Origin: Erysipelothrix sp.
GTDB taxonomy: Bacteria > Bacillota_I > Bacilli_A > Erysipelotrichales > Erysipelotrichaceae
Assembly (NCBI GenBank): GCA_012841625.1
Contig: DUUI01000004.1
Coordinates: 1 to 64,000 of the forward strand
Direction: 5' to 3'
Length of the DNA: 64,000 nucleotides
Shown here: in pieces, positions 51,791-59,631 of the stretch
Numbering within the stretch: the stretch's first letter is position 1
Layout: the number at the start of each line of letters is the position of its first letter
The notes under the pieces: model-generated
Told to the model about the DNA's origin: nothing
The model's database searches: none
Seen by the model: the letters and a program-made list of their open reading frames with translations, nothing else
Position numbers and translations under genes: made by a program

Positions 51791-51868
51791 GGTGGCCGTG
51801 GCGAAGGTGGTTAACGCACCGGGTTGTGGCTCCGGCATTCGCGGGTTCAAGTCCCGTCGGCCACCCCA
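51791..51868 (+). tRNA. tRNA-His (GTG anticodon), CCA encoded
   Basis: Seven-base acceptor stem GTGGCCG/CGGCCAC, extra G at -1 (51791) opposite C73 as required for histidine tRNA, anticodon loop TTGTGGC with GTG, T-loop GGTTCAAGTCC and a genomic CCA end. Stands alone with its own promoter and terminator. Confidence 0.97.
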
Positions 51869-51907: not shown

Positions 51908-52010
51908 GAAGTATGTTAGTAAGTTGTTTTTAGTATGGTCATCAACAGATCTAAAATGATGATACTAATTCTTGACATTACTTATCTAATTTTTACTCAT
52001 GTTGGCCATA

Positions 52011-52085
52011 AAGTTATTTGGACAAAAACTATTTGGACAAATCTATTTGGACTAGAATTAATTGAACCCAAAGTTATTTGAAACC
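52011..52085. repeat. Short imperfect direct repeats in a gene-less stretch
   Basis: Three or four copies of a unit close to CTATTTGGACAAA: at about 52013, 52029, 52043, and a decayed one at 52073. Region 51908-52145 has no ORF and no other recognisable feature. Confidence 0.6.
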
Positions 52086-52983: not shown

Positions 52984-53015
52984 AACAAAAGAAAAGATAA
53001 GGTTTTACCCTTATC
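52984..53015 (-). terminator. Terminator of the rnf operon, overlapping the rnfB stop
   Basis: Minus strand GATAAGG-GTAAAA-CCTTATC followed by TTTTCTTTTG; the rnfB TAA is in the hairpin, so nothing more can belong to this gene. Confidence 0.85.
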
Positions 53016-53328
53016 CTCTCACCACAAGTGTTTCTCCATCTAGTCCAGGAGTACTGGCAAGATAGTCAACAATTGAATTTCTTTGATCCTGATTACTAGG
53101 CGTACAACGTCTAACATCGTCTGTTTCTTTATCAACAAGAGCATTAGCCAGACCCTGACAACCAGGATAACCACAAGCTCCGCAGTTATATCCAGGAAGT
53201 AAGTTATGAACTTGTGCATACCTAGGATCCTCAATAACCTCAAATACTTTTGCTGCAAAAGCAAGCACTAAACCTAAAACAGCACCAATAGCTCCAATTA
53301 TAAGCATAGGTATTAAAATATCTTGCAT
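53011..53328 (-). CDS. rnfB: RnfB reduced to its N-terminal [4Fe-4S] part
   Basis: 105 aa. N-terminal membrane helix (about residues 5-26) and the RnfB-specific four-cysteine motif Cys49, 52, 57 (GYNCGACGYPGC) and Cys75. The protein ends at LVVRG, where typical RnfB continues for 150 or more residues with a ferredoxin domain holding two [4Fe-4S] clusters. The stop codon sits in the operon terminator and the next gene follows, so the missing part is not in another frame. RnfB normally passes electrons from ferredoxin into the complex. Coupled to the small Cys-rich gene upstream (TAG-ATG). Confidence 0.92.
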   Translation of the reverse strand: MQDILIPMLIIGAIGAVLGLVLAFAAKVFEVIEDPRYAQVHNLLPGYNCGACGYPGCQGLANALVDKETDDVRRCTPSNQDQRNSIVDYLASTPGLDGETLVVRG

Positions 53329-53508
53329 CTAATTTTCCTCATTTCTAGTACGACCATAGTGTCCACAGCTGACATCATGGCATGAACCACATTCAGCAAG
53401 TAAATGTTCACATCCCGCAGGAACACCAGTATTAGCGTTCTCAGAGAATGAAACAGAATACATGACAGTAAGTCCCACAATTAAAACTAATCCAAATAGA
53501 AAAGGCAT
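53329..53508 (-). CDS. 59-aa Cys-rich membrane protein within the rnf operon
   Basis: Starts at ATG 53508 overlapping the rnfA stop (TAATG) and ends TAG immediately before the rnfB ATG, filling the gap with no spare base. One membrane helix (about residues 2-21) and a polar tail with Cys33, 40, 43, 48; residues 40-44 read CGSCH, a CxxCH motif. Size and layout recall NqrM, which delivers iron to the NqrD/E site equivalent to RnfA/E, but the cysteine spacing differs. A small c-type heme protein is another reading; no cytochrome maturation genes are in the window. Confidence 0.7.
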   Translation of the reverse strand: MPFLFGLVLIVGLTVMYSVSFSENANTGVPAGCEHLLAECGSCHDVSCGHYGRTRNEEN

Positions 53509-54086
53509 TAAATAATCCCCGCCAATCCCGTAAATGCTAAAGCCATAATTGCCAATGTAATTAAAGCAATCGGCGAACCAAAGAAGGCTTTAGGAGTAGC
53601 AGAACTATCCAAACGCTCACGAATACTAGCAAAGATTACTAGAATCAACATAAAGCCCAAAGAAACTGCTGTTGAATAAACAAGCATTTCAACAAAATTA
53701 AATCCATTCACAATGTTTTCAAGAGCAACATATAAAACAACACAATTAGTTGTAATCAGTGGTAAAAAGATACCCAAACTCTTGTAAAGCGAAGGTGATG
53801 ACTTTTTAATAAACAACTCCGTAAATTGAACAAACGCCGCAATGATTAGAATAAAGACAAGTAAATCCATGTACTGTAAGTTTAGAGCAGTATCTAAAAT
53901 ATACTCATACACAGCCCACGTTAAGATAGAAGAGCCCACAATAACAAATAGAACCGCAAGACTCATCCCAATCGCAGACTTTAAGTTTCTAGAAACACCC
54001 ATCAACGGACACATTCCTAAGAACTTAGTCAATACAACGTTCTCAATAAAGATTGCCGCAAAAGCAATCGTAAGTAAATCAGCCAT
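53508..54086 (-). CDS. rnfA: Rnf complex subunit RnfA
   Basis: 192 aa, six membrane helices. The family cysteines that bind the intramembrane [2Fe-2S] cluster with RnfE are kept: Cys26 (FLGMCPLMG) and Cys115 (LITTNCVVLYV). Starts at the rnfE stop. Forms the core that moves electrons across the membrane. Confidence 0.97.
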   Translation of the reverse strand: MADLLTIAFAAIFIENVVLTKFLGMCPLMGVSRNLKSAIGMSLAVLFVIVGSSILTWAVYEYILDTALNLQYMDLLVFILIIAAFVQFTELFIKKSSPSLYKSLGIFLPLITTNCVVLYVALENIVNGFNFVEMLVYSTAVSLGFMLILVIFASIRERLDSSATPKAFFGSPIALITLAIMALAFTGLAGII

Positions 54087-54748
54087 TATTTAGCCCCCTT
54101 CTTAGCTTTAGCAGCCTTATGATTGGTATATCCAACATATGCCGCAATCACCGCAGCAAAGGTAATAAACGCCCCTGTCGGAGAACTAAATGTAGCAATA
54201 GTAAAAGTATCAGGAATAATTTGTAAAGAGAATAATGTCTCTAAACTTAACGGATTATACATTGAAATTGCTCCAGTCGCCAACAATTGACGGAAGAAAG
54301 CAATAATCACAATAATCATAGAATAACCAATACCCATTCCTAATCCATCTAAAAAAGAATCAAAAACAGAATTCTTACTCGCAAACGCTTCAGCACGACC
54401 AAGGATAATACAGTTAACAACAATTAACCCTAAGAAAGTACCTAGAGCATTATATAAAGATGGAACATAAGCATGTAAGAATAGATCCACTACCTTAACT
54501 AAAGTTGCGATAACAACAATATAAACAGGAATTCGGATATCATCTGGCGTAATATTTCTAATTAATGAAATAACTACATTTGAAGCAACAAGAACAAAGA
54601 TTACACATAACCCCATTCCAATCGCATTATTTAAATTAGTCGTAATAGCAAGGGTTGAACACAAACCTAACATTAAAACCAACACTGGGTTTTCTTTAAA
54701 GAATCCAGAAGTAAGTATATCGATACGACTACGTTTTGGTTGACTCAT
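54086..54748 (-). CDS. rnfE: Rnf complex subunit RnfE
   Basis: 220 aa, six membrane helices, paralogue of RnfA in inverted topology. Intramembrane cluster cysteines Cys30 (MLGLCSTLAIT) and Cys113 (IVVNCIILGRAEAFA) are kept. Basic C-terminus. 11 bases after rnfG. Confidence 0.97.
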   Translation of the reverse strand: MSQPKRSRIDILTSGFFKENPVLVLMLGLCSTLAITTNLNNAIGMGLCVIFVLVASNVVISLIRNITPDDIRIPVYIVVIATLVKVVDLFLHAYVPSLYNALGTFLGLIVVNCIILGRAEAFASKNSVFDSFLDGLGMGIGYSMIIVIIAFFRQLLATGAISMYNPLSLETLFSLQIIPDTFTIATFSSPTGAFITFAAVIAAYVGYTNHKAAKAKKGAK

Positions 54749-54759
54749 TCTAAATCCTC

Positions 54760-55653
54760 CTATTCTTGGTTTCTTGCATCTTCAACAGCAAGATTGACAG
54801 CCTTAATGACTGACTCAACGGTTTTAGTAGCACCTGAAACCCCATCGACTTCTGAAGGCATTTCATTAATATTCAAGCCCTCAAACTGACCTAAGAATTC
54901 AGGAGAATCTGCTTTATCACCCAATCCAACAGTGTCATTGAACTGCGTAAAGATAACCGATTCAATACTACCAGTAGCTAAATCAATTTTAATCTCATAT
55001 TCATTCGTTCCCACATAACCAACAGACTCGACAACATAAGTCATAACATCGCCCTCTTGATTTGTAGAAGTAATTGTATCACCCACTAAATCAGCTGTTG
55101 AAACTTGAGGTAAATCAGGCTCAACCTCTTCAGGTGTAGCAGTTGATCCAGTTAAAGAATTAAAGACAGTCACTGCAGCATCAACACCATTTTTAATAGC
55201 ATCAGAAGAAGCAGTAACACCAGAAATCATATCCACAGGATCGCTTGTTGATTTACCAGTCATCCCTTGATGATATTCATCTTCCATCAAACGCTGACCA
55301 AAACCAGGTGTATCATTATTACTTAAAATTTGAAACTTTGAATTGCTTCCATCAACATCATACCCAATTAAGAATACGATATCATCATCATATCCACGAG
55401 CCGCAACTTGAAAGACATAAGCATCTTCATCGACTTTATAAGCCTCTCTCACTAATCCATCAGCATCAGCTTCAAATTCAATAGCCTCAAAACTTGAAGC
55501 ATAAGGATAAAGTTTTTCAATCTCAGCCGTTTGAGCACCTGCTTCATTAGCAGCAATAATTGGCGCAGTAACAGAGTTAACAGCAGCCAAGACGCCAGTC
55601 GCTAAAGCAGAGATAATAGCTAAAAACAAAGTAAGTTTAACTGTTTTATTCAT
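54760..55653 (-). CDS. rnfG: RnfG with two FMN-binding domains
   Basis: 297 aa against about 200 for usual RnfG. N-terminal membrane helix (about residues 6-28), first FMN-binding domain ending in MISGVTASSDAIKNG (attachment Thr147, motif SGVT in place of SGAT), a Pro/Glu-rich linker (about 172-184), then a second domain ending in VDGVSGATKTVESVIKA (Thr276, canonical SGAT). Both domains face outside. ApbE, encoded divergently, would attach FMN through a phosphoester to these threonines. Confidence 0.93.
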   Translation of the reverse strand: MNKTVKLTLFLAIISALATGVLAAVNSVTAPIIAANEAGAQTAEIEKLYPYASSFEAIEFEADADGLVREAYKVDEDAYVFQVAARGYDDDIVFLIGYDVDGSNSKFQILSNNDTPGFGQRLMEDEYHQGMTGKSTSDPVDMISGVTASSDAIKNGVDAAVTVFNSLTGSTATPEEVEPDLPQVSTADLVGDTITSTNQEGDVMTYVVESVGYVGTNEYEIKIDLATGSIESVIFTQFNDTVGLGDKADSPEFLGQFEGLNINEMPSEVDGVSGATKTVESVIKAVNLAVEDARNQE

Positions 55654-57050
55654 TATTGACCTCCATGTTCAGCAGCCGCAGCCTTAACTGCCTCAAGCAC
55701 TGAATTAGAACTGAATGTAGCAGAGTTTGACGTATCAACATCAATTTCACTCACTACATCGAGACCAACAAATTGAGATAAGAAATCATCTGATCGAGCC
55801 GGAGCACCCTCAGCATCTGAGTCAGCAAACTTCTCAAATGAAACAGATTCAACTGTCCCATCACCAGAAATTTGAACCAACACAATATTCTTATCACCTG
55901 CATTAAAGCCCTTTGATTCAACACGATAGACTTTAGAGCTACCCTCATCAGTCACATCTAAAACACTTACATTTTCATCCTGAGCAGAAACAACTTGAAC
56001 AACATTTCCAGCAAGAGTTGAAAATAATACTGCAACAACAGCCACTCCAGCTAGACTCATCATGGCTTTCTTATAAGTTTTAATTTGATTACCAGCTAAT
56101 AGATAATCAATCATTGGAACTAAAATATTCATTAACACAATCGCAAAGACGACTCCACCAGGAGTTTGTCCAAATAAACGAATGATAAATGTTAAGATAG
56201 CAGCCCCAACCCCAAAGATAGCTCGTCCAACAGGATGAACAGGAGATGTCACTGGATCAGTTAACATAAAGACAGCACCAAAGATAGCTCCTCCATTAAT
56301 GACTTGGAATAAGCCATAACTTAAATCCATACCACCAATAAGAGCAAACACAAGACCCATAACAAATAAAGTAATTAAATAAGAAATTGTAATTCTCCAG
56401 TCAATAACTTGACGCACAATTAAAACAACACCAAGAATTAACATCAGAATAGCAGGTGTTTCTCCAATCGCACCAGGATGCCAACCAGTCAATAAACCAG
56501 TCCAACCACCAAAGCCTTCAAGAAACTTCTCAAAGCCACCAGCAGCAACTGTCCATGACTGTGCATTAACACTTGAAACAGGAGTAGCTCCCACAGCTAA
56601 ATCAGCCAGTGTATGACCACCAAAGGCAGTCACAAGAACAATCCGACCAACGCCTGCTGGGTTGAAGATATTTTGTCCAAATCCACCAAAAGCCAATTTA
56701 CCAATAAAAATAGCAAATGCGGTTGAGATAACTATTGGATATATTTGTACATTCACTGATGTGATCAAAACAAGAATGATCGAAGTTATATAAGGATATG
56801 AAGAAGATAAATGTTTCTTAATATCCTTCTTTGTAGCAACCGCATATAAAACTTCAATCGCATAAGCTGTGATTAATGACGCAGCTAACATTGTCAGAAT
56901 ATGAATAACATAATTTAATCCATATTCCATTTGATAATAAACTAAACTAAATGCTAGTACAGCAAGTAAAGCGATTAACAGTTCAAACATAATTTGAGAG
57001 GTTGTTCGCTTAATCTTAATACTAGGCGCGAATCTAAATTTATAATCCAT
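55653..57050 (-). CDS. rnfD: RnfD with an extra C-terminal FMN-binding-like domain
   Basis: 465 aa against about 320-350 for the family. Residues 1-350 are the membrane subunit, with the internal flavin site DLAVGATPVS (Thr156) and the family's FNPAGVGR and VFMLTDPVTSPVHPVGR. Residues 355-465 add an extracytoplasmic domain with the fold pattern of FMN_bind (VYRVESKGFNAGDKNIVLVQ, DDFLSQFVGLDVV). It ends in DTSNSATFSSNSVLEAV, where the SGAT attachment motif is degenerate (SAT, Thr445). Whether it still binds flavin is open. Confidence 0.92.
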   Translation of the reverse strand: MDYKFRFAPSIKIKRTTSQIMFELLIALLAVLAFSLVYYQMEYGLNYVIHILTMLAASLITAYAIEVLYAVATKKDIKKHLSSSYPYITSIILVLITSVNVQIYPIVISTAFAIFIGKLAFGGFGQNIFNPAGVGRIVLVTAFGGHTLADLAVGATPVSSVNAQSWTVAAGGFEKFLEGFGGWTGLLTGWHPGAIGETPAILMLILGVVLIVRQVIDWRITISYLITLFVMGLVFALIGGMDLSYGLFQVINGGAIFGAVFMLTDPVTSPVHPVGRAIFGVGAAILTFIIRLFGQTPGGVVFAIVLMNILVPMIDYLLAGNQIKTYKKAMMSLAGVAVVAVLFSTLAGNVVQVVSAQDENVSVLDVTDEGSSKVYRVESKGFNAGDKNIVLVQISGDGTVESVSFEKFADSDAEGAPARSDDFLSQFVGLDVVSEIDVDTSNSATFSSNSVLEAVKAAAAEHGGQ

Positions 57051-57056
57051 TATGTC

Positions 57057-58349
57057 TTACCCCTTTCTCAAACGTAATGCATTTTTAGCACGACGCATGT
57101 TTTCTGTTACATCAATCTTAGATGGACATACATAAGTACAAAGCCCACACTCGATACATGCATTGGTATCTAATTTTTCAATCATGTCTAAATTCTTAGC
57201 TATTTCAGCATCCTGAATCTTAACCGGAATTAATCCTGCCGGGCAATTATCAACACAGGCTGCACAACGCAAACATCCAATCGCATCTACTTTACGCTCA
57301 ATGAGAACGGTTAATGCATTGGAAGTAAAATTAATGGTCACATTCTTTGAAAGCATAGTTTTACCCATCATAGGTCCACCATGAATAACATGAACGTTTT
57401 CATCAGTAGTACCACCACAGGCTTCAACAATATCCCCAATCGGTGTACCAATTTTCGCTAAGACATTTCGTGGTTCCTTAATTCCATCACCAGAAACAGT
57501 AATCATTTTCTCAGTAATAGGAACTCCTAATCTAAAGGCTCTAGAAACCATAATCGCAGTCGTCGCATTATTAACAACAGCTCCAATTTCACTTGGAAGT
57601 CTGTCATAACGTTTCTTTAATAATTCAAAGACTAATGTTCTTTCCCATCCCATTGGATAGACATTTGGAACACCAACAACCTCAATGTCACTAAATCCAC
57701 CAAAGGCTTCTTTAAGACGAGCAATTGTTTGTTTCTTATCTTCCTTAATAGCCACTAATGTTTTTTGAACATTACCAGCTTTTCTAAGAATATGAACACC
57801 ATTAACAAGATCCTCTAAATAATCGTTTACATTACGATAATCTTGAGTGATATATGGTTCACATTCCACCGCATTAATAATTAAATAAGGTGTTTCTGTC
57901 ATCGGTTTGTATTTCAAATAAGCCGGGAAACCAGCTCCACCACATCCGACAATACCCATTTCTTTAATGTGCTCGATGATTTCATCTTTACTAGCACTTA
58001 CATAATCTAAAGGTGTTGGGGCAACAGCCTCATATTGATTATCGTTTTCGATTACAATATGTTTAGACTTACGACCACCCCAGCCGTGAAACTCATCCTT
58101 AAACCCAGTAACAGTGCCAGATACAGGTGAAAACAGAGGAATCACAAAATGGTCATTTCTTGCGGCAATCTTTTGATTGACTAAAACACGGTCACCCTCT
58201 TTGACATAAAGTTCTAAATTAGTTGAGCCCATCGCCATTAAAGGAATAGCGATTTCCTTAGGAGTCTCAATATTTAGAATTTCGTTATGGTCAGTAAGTT
58301 CTTTAAAACCGGGTATATGTTTACGCAAAGGTCCTAATAAAAAAGACAT
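57057..58349 (-). CDS. rnfC: Rnf complex subunit RnfC
   Basis: 430 aa, complete. N-terminal part with a biotinyl-like SPVSGTVTGF hairpin, NADH/FMN-binding domain (GIVGCGGAGFPAYLKY, INAVECEPYIT) and two [4Fe-4S] motifs, CLRCAACVDNCP and CIECGLCTYVCP. Oxidises or reduces NAD on the cytoplasmic side. First gene of the operon. Confidence 0.97.
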   Translation of the reverse strand: MSFLLGPLRKHIPGFKELTDHNEILNIETPKEIAIPLMAMGSTNLELYVKEGDRVLVNQKIAARNDHFVIPLFSPVSGTVTGFKDEFHGWGGRKSKHIVIENDNQYEAVAPTPLDYVSASKDEIIEHIKEMGIVGCGGAGFPAYLKYKPMTETPYLIINAVECEPYITQDYRNVNDYLEDLVNGVHILRKAGNVQKTLVAIKEDKKQTIARLKEAFGGFSDIEVVGVPNVYPMGWERTLVFELLKKRYDRLPSEIGAVVNNATTAIMVSRAFRLGVPITEKMITVSGDGIKEPRNVLAKIGTPIGDIVEACGGTTDENVHVIHGGPMMGKTMLSKNVTINFTSNALTVLIERKVDAIGCLRCAACVDNCPAGLIPVKIQDAEIAKNLDMIEKLDTNACIECGLCTYVCPSKIDVTENMRRAKNALRLRKG

Positions 58350-58494: not shown

Positions 58495-59631
58495 ATGAGA
58501 AAGAGTCTAACTATCGTCCTATTAGGACTATTAATATTAACAGGTTGTACAAGTAAACCAGAGTATCAGCGATATCAAGCAGATACCTCAACAAGTGGTT
58601 TTGATACTAAAATTACTCTAATGGCTTATACAACAAGCGAATCTGAGTTTACAAAATACTTCGATCGAATGAAAGAATTGTATTATGAATACAATATTCT
58701 TTTTGATAAATACAACAATTATGAAGGCATCAACAATCTAAAAACGATTAATGATATGGCAGGAAAAGAAGCAGTTGAAGTTGACCAAAGAATCATAGAT
58801 ACTTTAGTATTATCTAGAGAAGAATTTGACAATAACAAAGGCAAATTCGATATCACAATGGGATCTGTTTTAAGTATCTGGCACGACTATCGAGAAGATG
58901 GATTAATTGCAAATTACAGCAACGAACCAGGTGAAGTACCACCCCTAGAGATGCTTCAAGAAGCAAAAGAATGCACAGGTTGGGATTTAATTGAGATAGA
59001 TGATGAGAAAAACACCGTCTATTTAACAAAAGACTGTGCTTCACTAGATTTAGGGGGTCTTGCTAAAGGATACGCAACCCAAGAAATTATGGATATATTA
59101 GCAGAAGAAGGCTTAACTCACTTCAGCATTAATGCCGGTGGCAATGTTAAAGTGTATGACTTAAAACCAGATGGTTCAGGATGGAATATAGCAGTAGGAG
59201 AACCCTCTCTAATCGTTATAGATCAATATGCAGACATTCTAAGAATTAACGAGGAACTTTCAATTGTAGCATCAGGTGATTATCAACGATATTACATCGG
59301 ACCAAATGATGAAACCTATCATCATTTAATCGATCCTGATTCATTATTCCCGCTACATCATTTTAGAAAAGTAACAGTCGTTATGGAAGATTCAACTTAT
59401 GCTGATATGTACTCAACCGTATTATTCTTACTTCCTTATGAAGAAGGTGTTTTATGGATCAAAGAACACAACGAAAGAAACCCTCATCTTCATCTAGAAG
59501 CACACTGGGTCATTGATATAGACAACGAAGAATACAAAGATCATCCTGATTTTATGAGTATTCCTGAAAAACCATACAAAATAGCAATGACAGATGGACT
59601 AAGAGAAATGTCCCATGTCGTTACCCCATAA
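58495..59631 (+). CDS. apbE: FAD:protein FMN transferase ApbE (lipoprotein)
   Basis: 378 aa. Lipobox ILTGCTSK at Cys18 places it on the outer face of the membrane. ApbE core: GFDTKITLMAY, FDITMGSVLSIWHDY, LDLGGLAKGYATQEI, FSINAGGNV and the metal-binding STYADMYST. Transfers FMN from FAD to Thr of SGAT motifs, so RnfG and RnfD are its likely targets. Divergent from the rnf operon. The C-terminal 30 residues extend beyond the family core. Confidence 0.95.
   Translation: MRKSLTIVLLGLLILTGCTSKPEYQRYQADTSTSGFDTKITLMAYTTSESEFTKYFDRMKELYYEYNILFDKYNNYEGINNLKTINDMAGKEAVEVDQRIIDTLVLSREEFDNNKGKFDITMGSVLSIWHDYREDGLIANYSNEPGEVPPLEMLQEAKECTGWDLIEIDDEKNTVYLTKDCASLDLGGLAKGYATQEIMDILAEEGLTHFSINAGGNVKVYDLKPDGSGWNIAVGEPSLIVIDQYADILRINEELSIVASGDYQRYYIGPNDETYHHLIDPDSLFPLHHFRKVTVVMEDSTYADMYSTVLFLLPYEEGVLWIKEHNERNPHLHLEAHWVIDIDNEEYKDHPDFMSIPEKPYKIAMTDGLREMSHVVTP

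Follow-up and report, generated by a model that had tools for sequence, protein, structure and literature searches.

A small cysteine-rich membrane protein encoded between rnfA and rnfB as a candidate partner of Rnf complexes with a short RnfB

Introduction

The Rnf complex, a sodium or proton pump, is a main ion pump of many anaerobes. In the solved structures, the RnfB subunit contains three to eight clusters (PMC11889175), and multi-flavinylated RnfG has been described (PMC8238504). Small proteins beyond the six canonical subunits are also known. For instance, the Rnf1 complex of Azotobacter contains RnfH, an additional small protein that lacks a cofactor and is without homologues in other complexes (PMC12174285). 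Moreover, the small membrane protein NqrM, whose gene is located in the nqr operon, seems to be required for inserting into the Na+-NQR an intramembrane [2Fe-2S] cluster of the kind found in Rnf (PMC12174285). In the literature surveyed, no description was found of how this cluster is installed in Rnf, and a search that covers part of the literature returned no mention of RnfB together with Erysipelotrich-. Here, we describe a small gene from an rnf operon of Erysipelothrix sp., which lies in the 64,000-nucleotide stretch of contig DUUI01000004.1 that was analysed (hereafter, the window).

The rnf operon and the small gene

The operon contains rnfC, rnfD, rnfG, rnfE, rnfA and rnfB, and the genes follow each other in the order rnfC-D-G-E-A-small gene-B, all on the minus strand (Table 1). 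The cluster cysteines of RnfA and RnfE are kept; Cys26/Cys115 of RnfA, by analogy with C25/C113 of A. woodii (PMC11889175), and Cys30/Cys113 of RnfE, likewise by analogy, are taken as the ligands of the intramembrane [2Fe-2S] cluster. Among the relatives found, the nearest is a MAG that bears the label Erysipelothrix sp., with an RnfA identity of 72%.

Table 1 Features of the rnf region in the window
Feature	Position	Strand	Evidence
short rnfB, 105 aa; helix at the N terminus and one FeS domain, Cys 49, 52, 57, 75	53011..53328	-	PF04060
Shine-Dalgarno-like ATGAGGAAA ahead of rnfB, within the 3' end of the small ORF	53328..53345	-	sequence read
59-aa single-helix Cys-rich ORF MPFLFGLVLIVGLTVMYSVSFSENANTGVPAGCEHLLAECGSCHDVSCGHYGRTRNEEN	53329..53508	-	same-slot homologues, pN/pS, CxxC in 105/105 homologues
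Shine-Dalgarno-like GGCGGGGA ahead of the small ORF start, within the 3' end of rnfA	53508..53526	-	sequence read
rnfA, 192 aa; Cys26, Cys115	53508..54086	-	TIGR01943 over cut-off
rnfE, 220 aa; Cys30, Cys113	54086..54748	-	TIGR01948 over cut-off
rnfG, 297 aa; two FMN-binding domains, motifs SGVT and SGAT	54760..55653	-	PF04205, two stretches
rnfD, 465 aa; weak extra C-terminal FMN_bind-like domain	55653..57050	-	PF03116
rnfC, 430 aa; two CxxCxxCxxxC motifs	57057..58349	-	TIGR01945 over cut-off
apbE flavin transferase, divergent from rnfC	58603..59472 (profile match extent)	+	PF02424, 202 bits

A 59-aa gene had been proposed in the gap between rnfA and rnfB by the first-pass annotation, which gave no strand. 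The ORF proved to be real and is open on the minus strand, the plus-strand frame at 53329-53508 being closed. It was also borne out that the gap is filled exactly: the ATG shares one base with the rnfA stop (TTTAATG), and the TAG directly abuts the ATG of rnfB (TAG-ATG). The 59-residue product consists of one hydrophobic helix followed by ENANTGVPAGCEHLLAECGSCHDVSCGHYGRTRNEEN; its four cysteines are located at positions 33, 40, 43 and 48 and include the motif CGSCH. Pooled pN/pS values of 0.17 and 0.18 for close homologue pairs indicate that the ORF is under purifying selection in the relatives. The gene had been called unlisted, which is upheld so far as the window copy reaches the cut-off of no Pfam or NCBIfam model; among the matches listed, no fitting family was found for this copy or for the 45 members of the first family alignment.

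Further features were observed in the region. RnfG of a same-genus relative (L001:1069-2340, 423 aa) appears to have three flavinylation-type motifs. Residues 390-459 of RnfD from the window score 20.8 bits against PF04205 (cut-off 22), and the motif of this C-terminal domain reads TSNSATF in the window and TSTGATF in the same relative; flavinylation of the domain may have been lost in the host genome. A tRNA-like sequence with the His anticodon GTG, as read by eye, separates the cell-division genes from the rnf region (about 51792-51867, plus strand), and the intergenic stretch beyond it contains short, degenerate repeats such as ATTTGGAC (about 52000-52075).

Homologues share a cysteine core and a probable cytosolic tail

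A match to the small gene was found in 65 of 97 genomes of relatives, the own genome included. In the rnf loci of the family and the order that were read, a one-helix cysteine ORF lies between rnfA and rnfB; most often it overlaps rnfA or is found within a few bases of it. A set of 105 homologues was assembled from the 45 members of the first alignment, 40 class-level copies linked to rnf and 20 unlinked copies. All of them possess a CxxC motif with a further cysteine within eight residues. In the alignment of the 105 sequences, the core cysteines are conserved at 1.00, 1.00 and 0.97 and the first cysteine at 0.70. Behind the helix, Asn (0.95), Thr (0.87) and Pro (0.96) belong to a motif, N-x-[KR]-T-P-x-P, that is peculiar to this family. 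In family f12, the cysteine tail may comprise no more than about 15 residues. Loss of the ORF or of its cysteines in relatives had been named beforehand as the refuting outcome, and both turned out to be conserved. The initial description of one helix, four cysteines and CxxCH holds for the window copy, whereas the His of CxxCH is kept in only 15 of the 105 homologues.

In 102 of the 105 homologues, the excess of Lys and Arg residues is on the C-terminal side of the helix, and thus the cysteine tail should face the cytosol. A comparison with solved structures by sequence returned no relative of the family. The Fer2 profile (PF00111) scored 19.7 bits for the window copy, the cut-off being 21, and matched one of the 45 members.

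The small gene accompanies a reduced RnfB

The most striking context, which the first-pass annotation had missed, is that RnfB is cut down to a single-cluster domain and that the small gene tracks this type of RnfB even at loci away from rnf. RnfB from the window matches PF04060 at 44.2 bits (residues 44-77); it has no other Pfam match, no Fer4 module and four cysteines only. The match to TIGR01944 covers just positions 3-91 of the 190 in the profile and scores 67.1-70.0 bits around a cut-off of 68.7. Throughout the class, RnfB is mostly about 92-135 aa long and consists of one membrane helix and one FeS domain, with no ferredoxin module. Judged by position and family, the short RnfB would be the counterpart of 'B8', the mobile domain with a single cluster in A. 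woodii RnfB; the seven further clusters of that protein sit in the portion that the short form lacks (PMC11889175). It is at clusters lacking from the short RnfB that docking of ferredoxin has been proposed for A. woodii (PMC11889175). Thus, a single-cluster RnfB that is smaller than those of the solved structures raises the question of the site at which these pumps receive electrons from ferredoxin.

The RnfB proteins of family f9 (L237, L242, L252; 183-194 aa) comprise two tandem single-cluster FeS domains with a Lys-rich linker and no Fer4; they had been considered as a counterexample with ferredoxin domains, which this architecture rules out. In the clostridial comparators, taken from plasmid-collection records, rnfB encodes 263-355 aa with 25-32 cysteines and directly follows rnfA, the small gene being absent. 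It is also absent from the rnf locus of Parabacteroides. RnfB of Fusobacterium vincentii (L227:5546-6835, 429 aa) contains a single FeS domain together with three repeats, each about 60-70 aa long, and two short cysteine motifs at the C terminus; no Fer4 was recognisable in it, and the rnf locus of this organism, to which the search was confined, contains no relative of the small gene.

Distribution of the small gene across the class

Among 198 genomes of the class, the small-gene family was matched in 100, rnfA in 115 and both in 99. In other words, rnfA is present in 99 of the 100 genomes with the small gene, and the small gene is absent from 82 of the 83 genomes without rnfA. Applied to the raw counts, Fisher's test yields a p of about 6e-38, a value that, the genomes being related, is not a probability for independent events; many of the comparisons share ancestry and the counts therefore overstate the number of such events. 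A listed rnfB of the N-terminal type occurs in 100 genomes, of which 68 have the small gene beside rnfB, 24 have it only elsewhere and eight have no listed match. Four of these eight have a long RnfB, one is 55% complete and two (G249, G255) proved on direct reading to carry the small gene at the aspS site described below, which leaves G157 as the one absence without such an account. In several genomes with multiple rnf operons, the copy number of the small gene roughly tracks the number of operons. Three genomes of family f14 (G108, G141, G165) each have three rnf-type rnfB loci, with the small gene beside one of them and further copies elsewhere.

The unlinked copies occupy recurrent sites. 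In families f6 and f17, the small gene is remote from rnf and flanked by aspS and a deaminase gene, with or without an intervening ThiF-like gene (a label given by eye) on the aspS side. In family f22, it lies between the phosphoglucomutase (pgm) and uracil-DNA glycosylase (udg) genes, where these were identified. A context of flavin-based extracellular electron transfer, which had been guessed from gene sizes, was ruled out by a Pfam analysis of the neighbours: aspS, deaminase, lspA and rluD-like genes at the one site and pgm and udg at the other.

Presence of the unlinked copies goes along with the type of Rnf. In family f17, a match at E up to 0.01 was obtained in 17 of 22 genomes with rnfA versus one of six without. 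The small gene occupies the aspS-deaminase site in all seven genomes examined that have the native Rnf with a short RnfB (G100, G151, G217, G181, G249, G255, G393). It is absent from this site in all five genomes without rnf (G205, G175, G273, G159, G389), of which G273 carries little weight because other members of its genus have the small gene within their rnf operon, and in all four genomes with a long RnfB (G167, G211, G223, G267). In a tree of RnfA, all short-RnfB complexes form one clade (99/99), and the four long-RnfB proteins of family f6, which belong to one genus (L159-L162), nest with Subdoligranulum, a member of the Clostridia (100/99). This suggests that in this genus the native Rnf was horizontally replaced by a clostridial one and that the small gene, which lay outside the operon, was lost. 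Since presence at the unlinked site follows the type of Rnf, the small gene tracks the short-RnfB Rnf and not just the operon. We consider this pattern the strongest evidence that the small protein serves the short-RnfB Rnf specifically, although it represents a handful of independent events rather than nine. A class-wide gene that follows one type of Rnf outside the operon and is absent where this Rnf has been replaced is thus a concrete candidate for an Rnf-specific partner.

Possible functions of the small protein

Taken together, conservation and distribution make it very probable that the small protein is a dedicated, membrane-anchored partner of the short-RnfB Rnf. We tentatively favour an NqrM-like iron or Fe-S assembly factor for this complex, a reading to which we give nearly an even chance, since the gene can work at a distance from rnf, one of the cysteines is dispensable and NqrM provides a precedent. 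Moreover, a core of three cysteines, with the fourth absent in about 30% of the homologues, is easier to reconcile with transient handling of metal than with a permanent four-cysteine cluster. At the membrane surface, the cytosolic tail would bind iron or a labile Fe-S cluster and pass it on to a nascent Rnf subunit. The most likely target would be either the single [4Fe-4S] domain of RnfB or the [2Fe-2S] site lying between RnfA and RnfE. Coupled translation from the slot between rnfA and rnfB would provide the protein while the cluster-bearing subunits assemble. The role would resemble that of NqrM for the Na+-NQR, though no NqrM is detectable. However, a general inserter of the RnfA/E cluster should not have been lost along with the short RnfB, and a copy number that roughly follows the number of operons would equally suit a stoichiometric subunit. 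The RnfA/E cluster is also present in the long-RnfB Rnf, which has no small gene; the requirement must therefore be peculiar to the short type, and this keeps alive the alternative of a structural redox subunit. Such a membrane-tethered Fe-S or cysteine relay, or a dock for ferredoxin, would compensate for the missing ferredoxin module of RnfB and feed electrons to the single RnfB cluster or to RnfA/E. The strict association with a Fer4-less RnfB points in this direction, as do the absence of the gene with a long RnfB even after the apparent operon replacement in f6, the translational coupling, the copy number and the docking sites proposed for A. woodii ferredoxin, which are missing here (PMC11889175). 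We nevertheless regard the relay as rather unlikely: just three cysteines are near-invariant, the tail of about 15 residues in f12 is short, the gene is often encoded away from rnf and family f9 retains it despite two FeS domains in RnfB, while Fusobacterium vincentii, also with no recognisable Fer4 in RnfB, has no relative of it in the rnf locus.

The remaining explanations have less in their favour. An iron-trafficking or iron-sensing membrane protein of the FeoB-associated kind could have been recruited to Rnf and act on iron supply rather than on the assembly of a specific cluster. Weak matches to PF12669 (FeoB_associated) in 14 of the 45 members, all short of the curated cut-off, with a best E of 0.0018 and none for the window copy, are consistent with this idea, and a profile comparison aligned the cysteine motif at 89% probability, compared with a maximum of 50% for shuffled controls. 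It is made improbable by a separate FeoB_associated gene over the cut-off in the host genome (G000:C79:18466-18567, minus strand), by a distribution that follows Rnf and by the family-specific N-x-[KR]-T-P-x-P motif. A small scaffold or stabilising subunit, using its cysteines for disulfides or zinc and playing no part in Fe-S chemistry, would have a parallel in Rnf accessory subunits such as the cofactor-free RnfH of Azotobacter (PMC12174285), and zinc binding by CxxC-C is possible. Yet the cysteines are the best conserved positions of the protein. The cytosol of anaerobes is, moreover, unfavourable to disulfides, and a scaffold appears quite improbable. The first-pass annotation had also considered heme binding, and the CGSCH of the window copy fits a c-type cytochrome. 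This proposal did not survive: with the tail on the cytosolic side, as the charges predict, heme c is out, and the scarcity of the His among the homologues likewise rules it out as a property of the family, so that hardly any chance is left for a cytochrome.

Comparison with known systems

The Rnf complexes with a polyferredoxin RnfB, as in A. woodii, C. tetanomorphum, Monoglobus and Vescimonas, have the same C-D-G-E-A-B gene order, the same subunits and the same cluster cysteines in RnfA and RnfE. In contrast, the operon in the window combines a short, one-FeS RnfB with an additional gene between rnfA and rnfB. With RnfH, likened here by description only, the product of this gene has in common that it is a small Rnf-associated protein beyond the six subunits. 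Like the FeoB-associated proteins, it consists of one helix and a short cysteine-rich tail, but the motif behind the helix is another one. Adjacency to feoB was not seen; the small gene adjoins rnfA/rnfB or lies in the aspS-deaminase or pgm-udg site. Either remote kinship with the FeoB-associated proteins or convergence is possible.

An analogue of NqrM had been proposed at the outset. This proposal holds for the architecture, whereas descent from NqrM was not detectable. A profile for NqrM (PF04400, DUF539), a maturation factor of Na+-NQR whose cluster insertion would concern NqrD/NqrE, gave no match in hmmscan for the window copy (E up to 10) or for the 45 members (E up to 1; among the matches listed, 25 of 34 families). 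None of the 198 class genomes contained an NqrM match over the cut-off, but as the control genomes gave none either, this result does not prove that NqrM is absent. An alignment of NqrM was prepared from six loci in public records, of which four adjoin an FMN transferase gene and one adjoins nqrF. With hhalign, the family scored 39% (45 members) or 72% (105 sequences) against NqrM, in the helix columns only, and shuffled controls reached up to 83%. The cysteine motifs differ as well: NqrM has an invariant GSCGG that includes an invariant first cysteine, whereas in the small-gene family the first cysteine is present in about 70%, no GG follows and the core is CxxC-C. What the two have in common is a small size, one N-terminal helix followed by Lys-Ser/Thr and a cysteine tail, and genes that accompany pumps sharing one type of intramembrane [2Fe-2S] cluster. 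It is conceivable, though we would put it below an even chance, that the entire class relies on a reduced Rnf that lacks the RnfB polyferredoxin and has an obligatory, formerly unrecognised small cysteine partner, be it an electron-entry relay or a cluster inserter. The Na+-NQR, which likewise lacks an RnfB polyferredoxin and has NqrM, would then be a parallel case.
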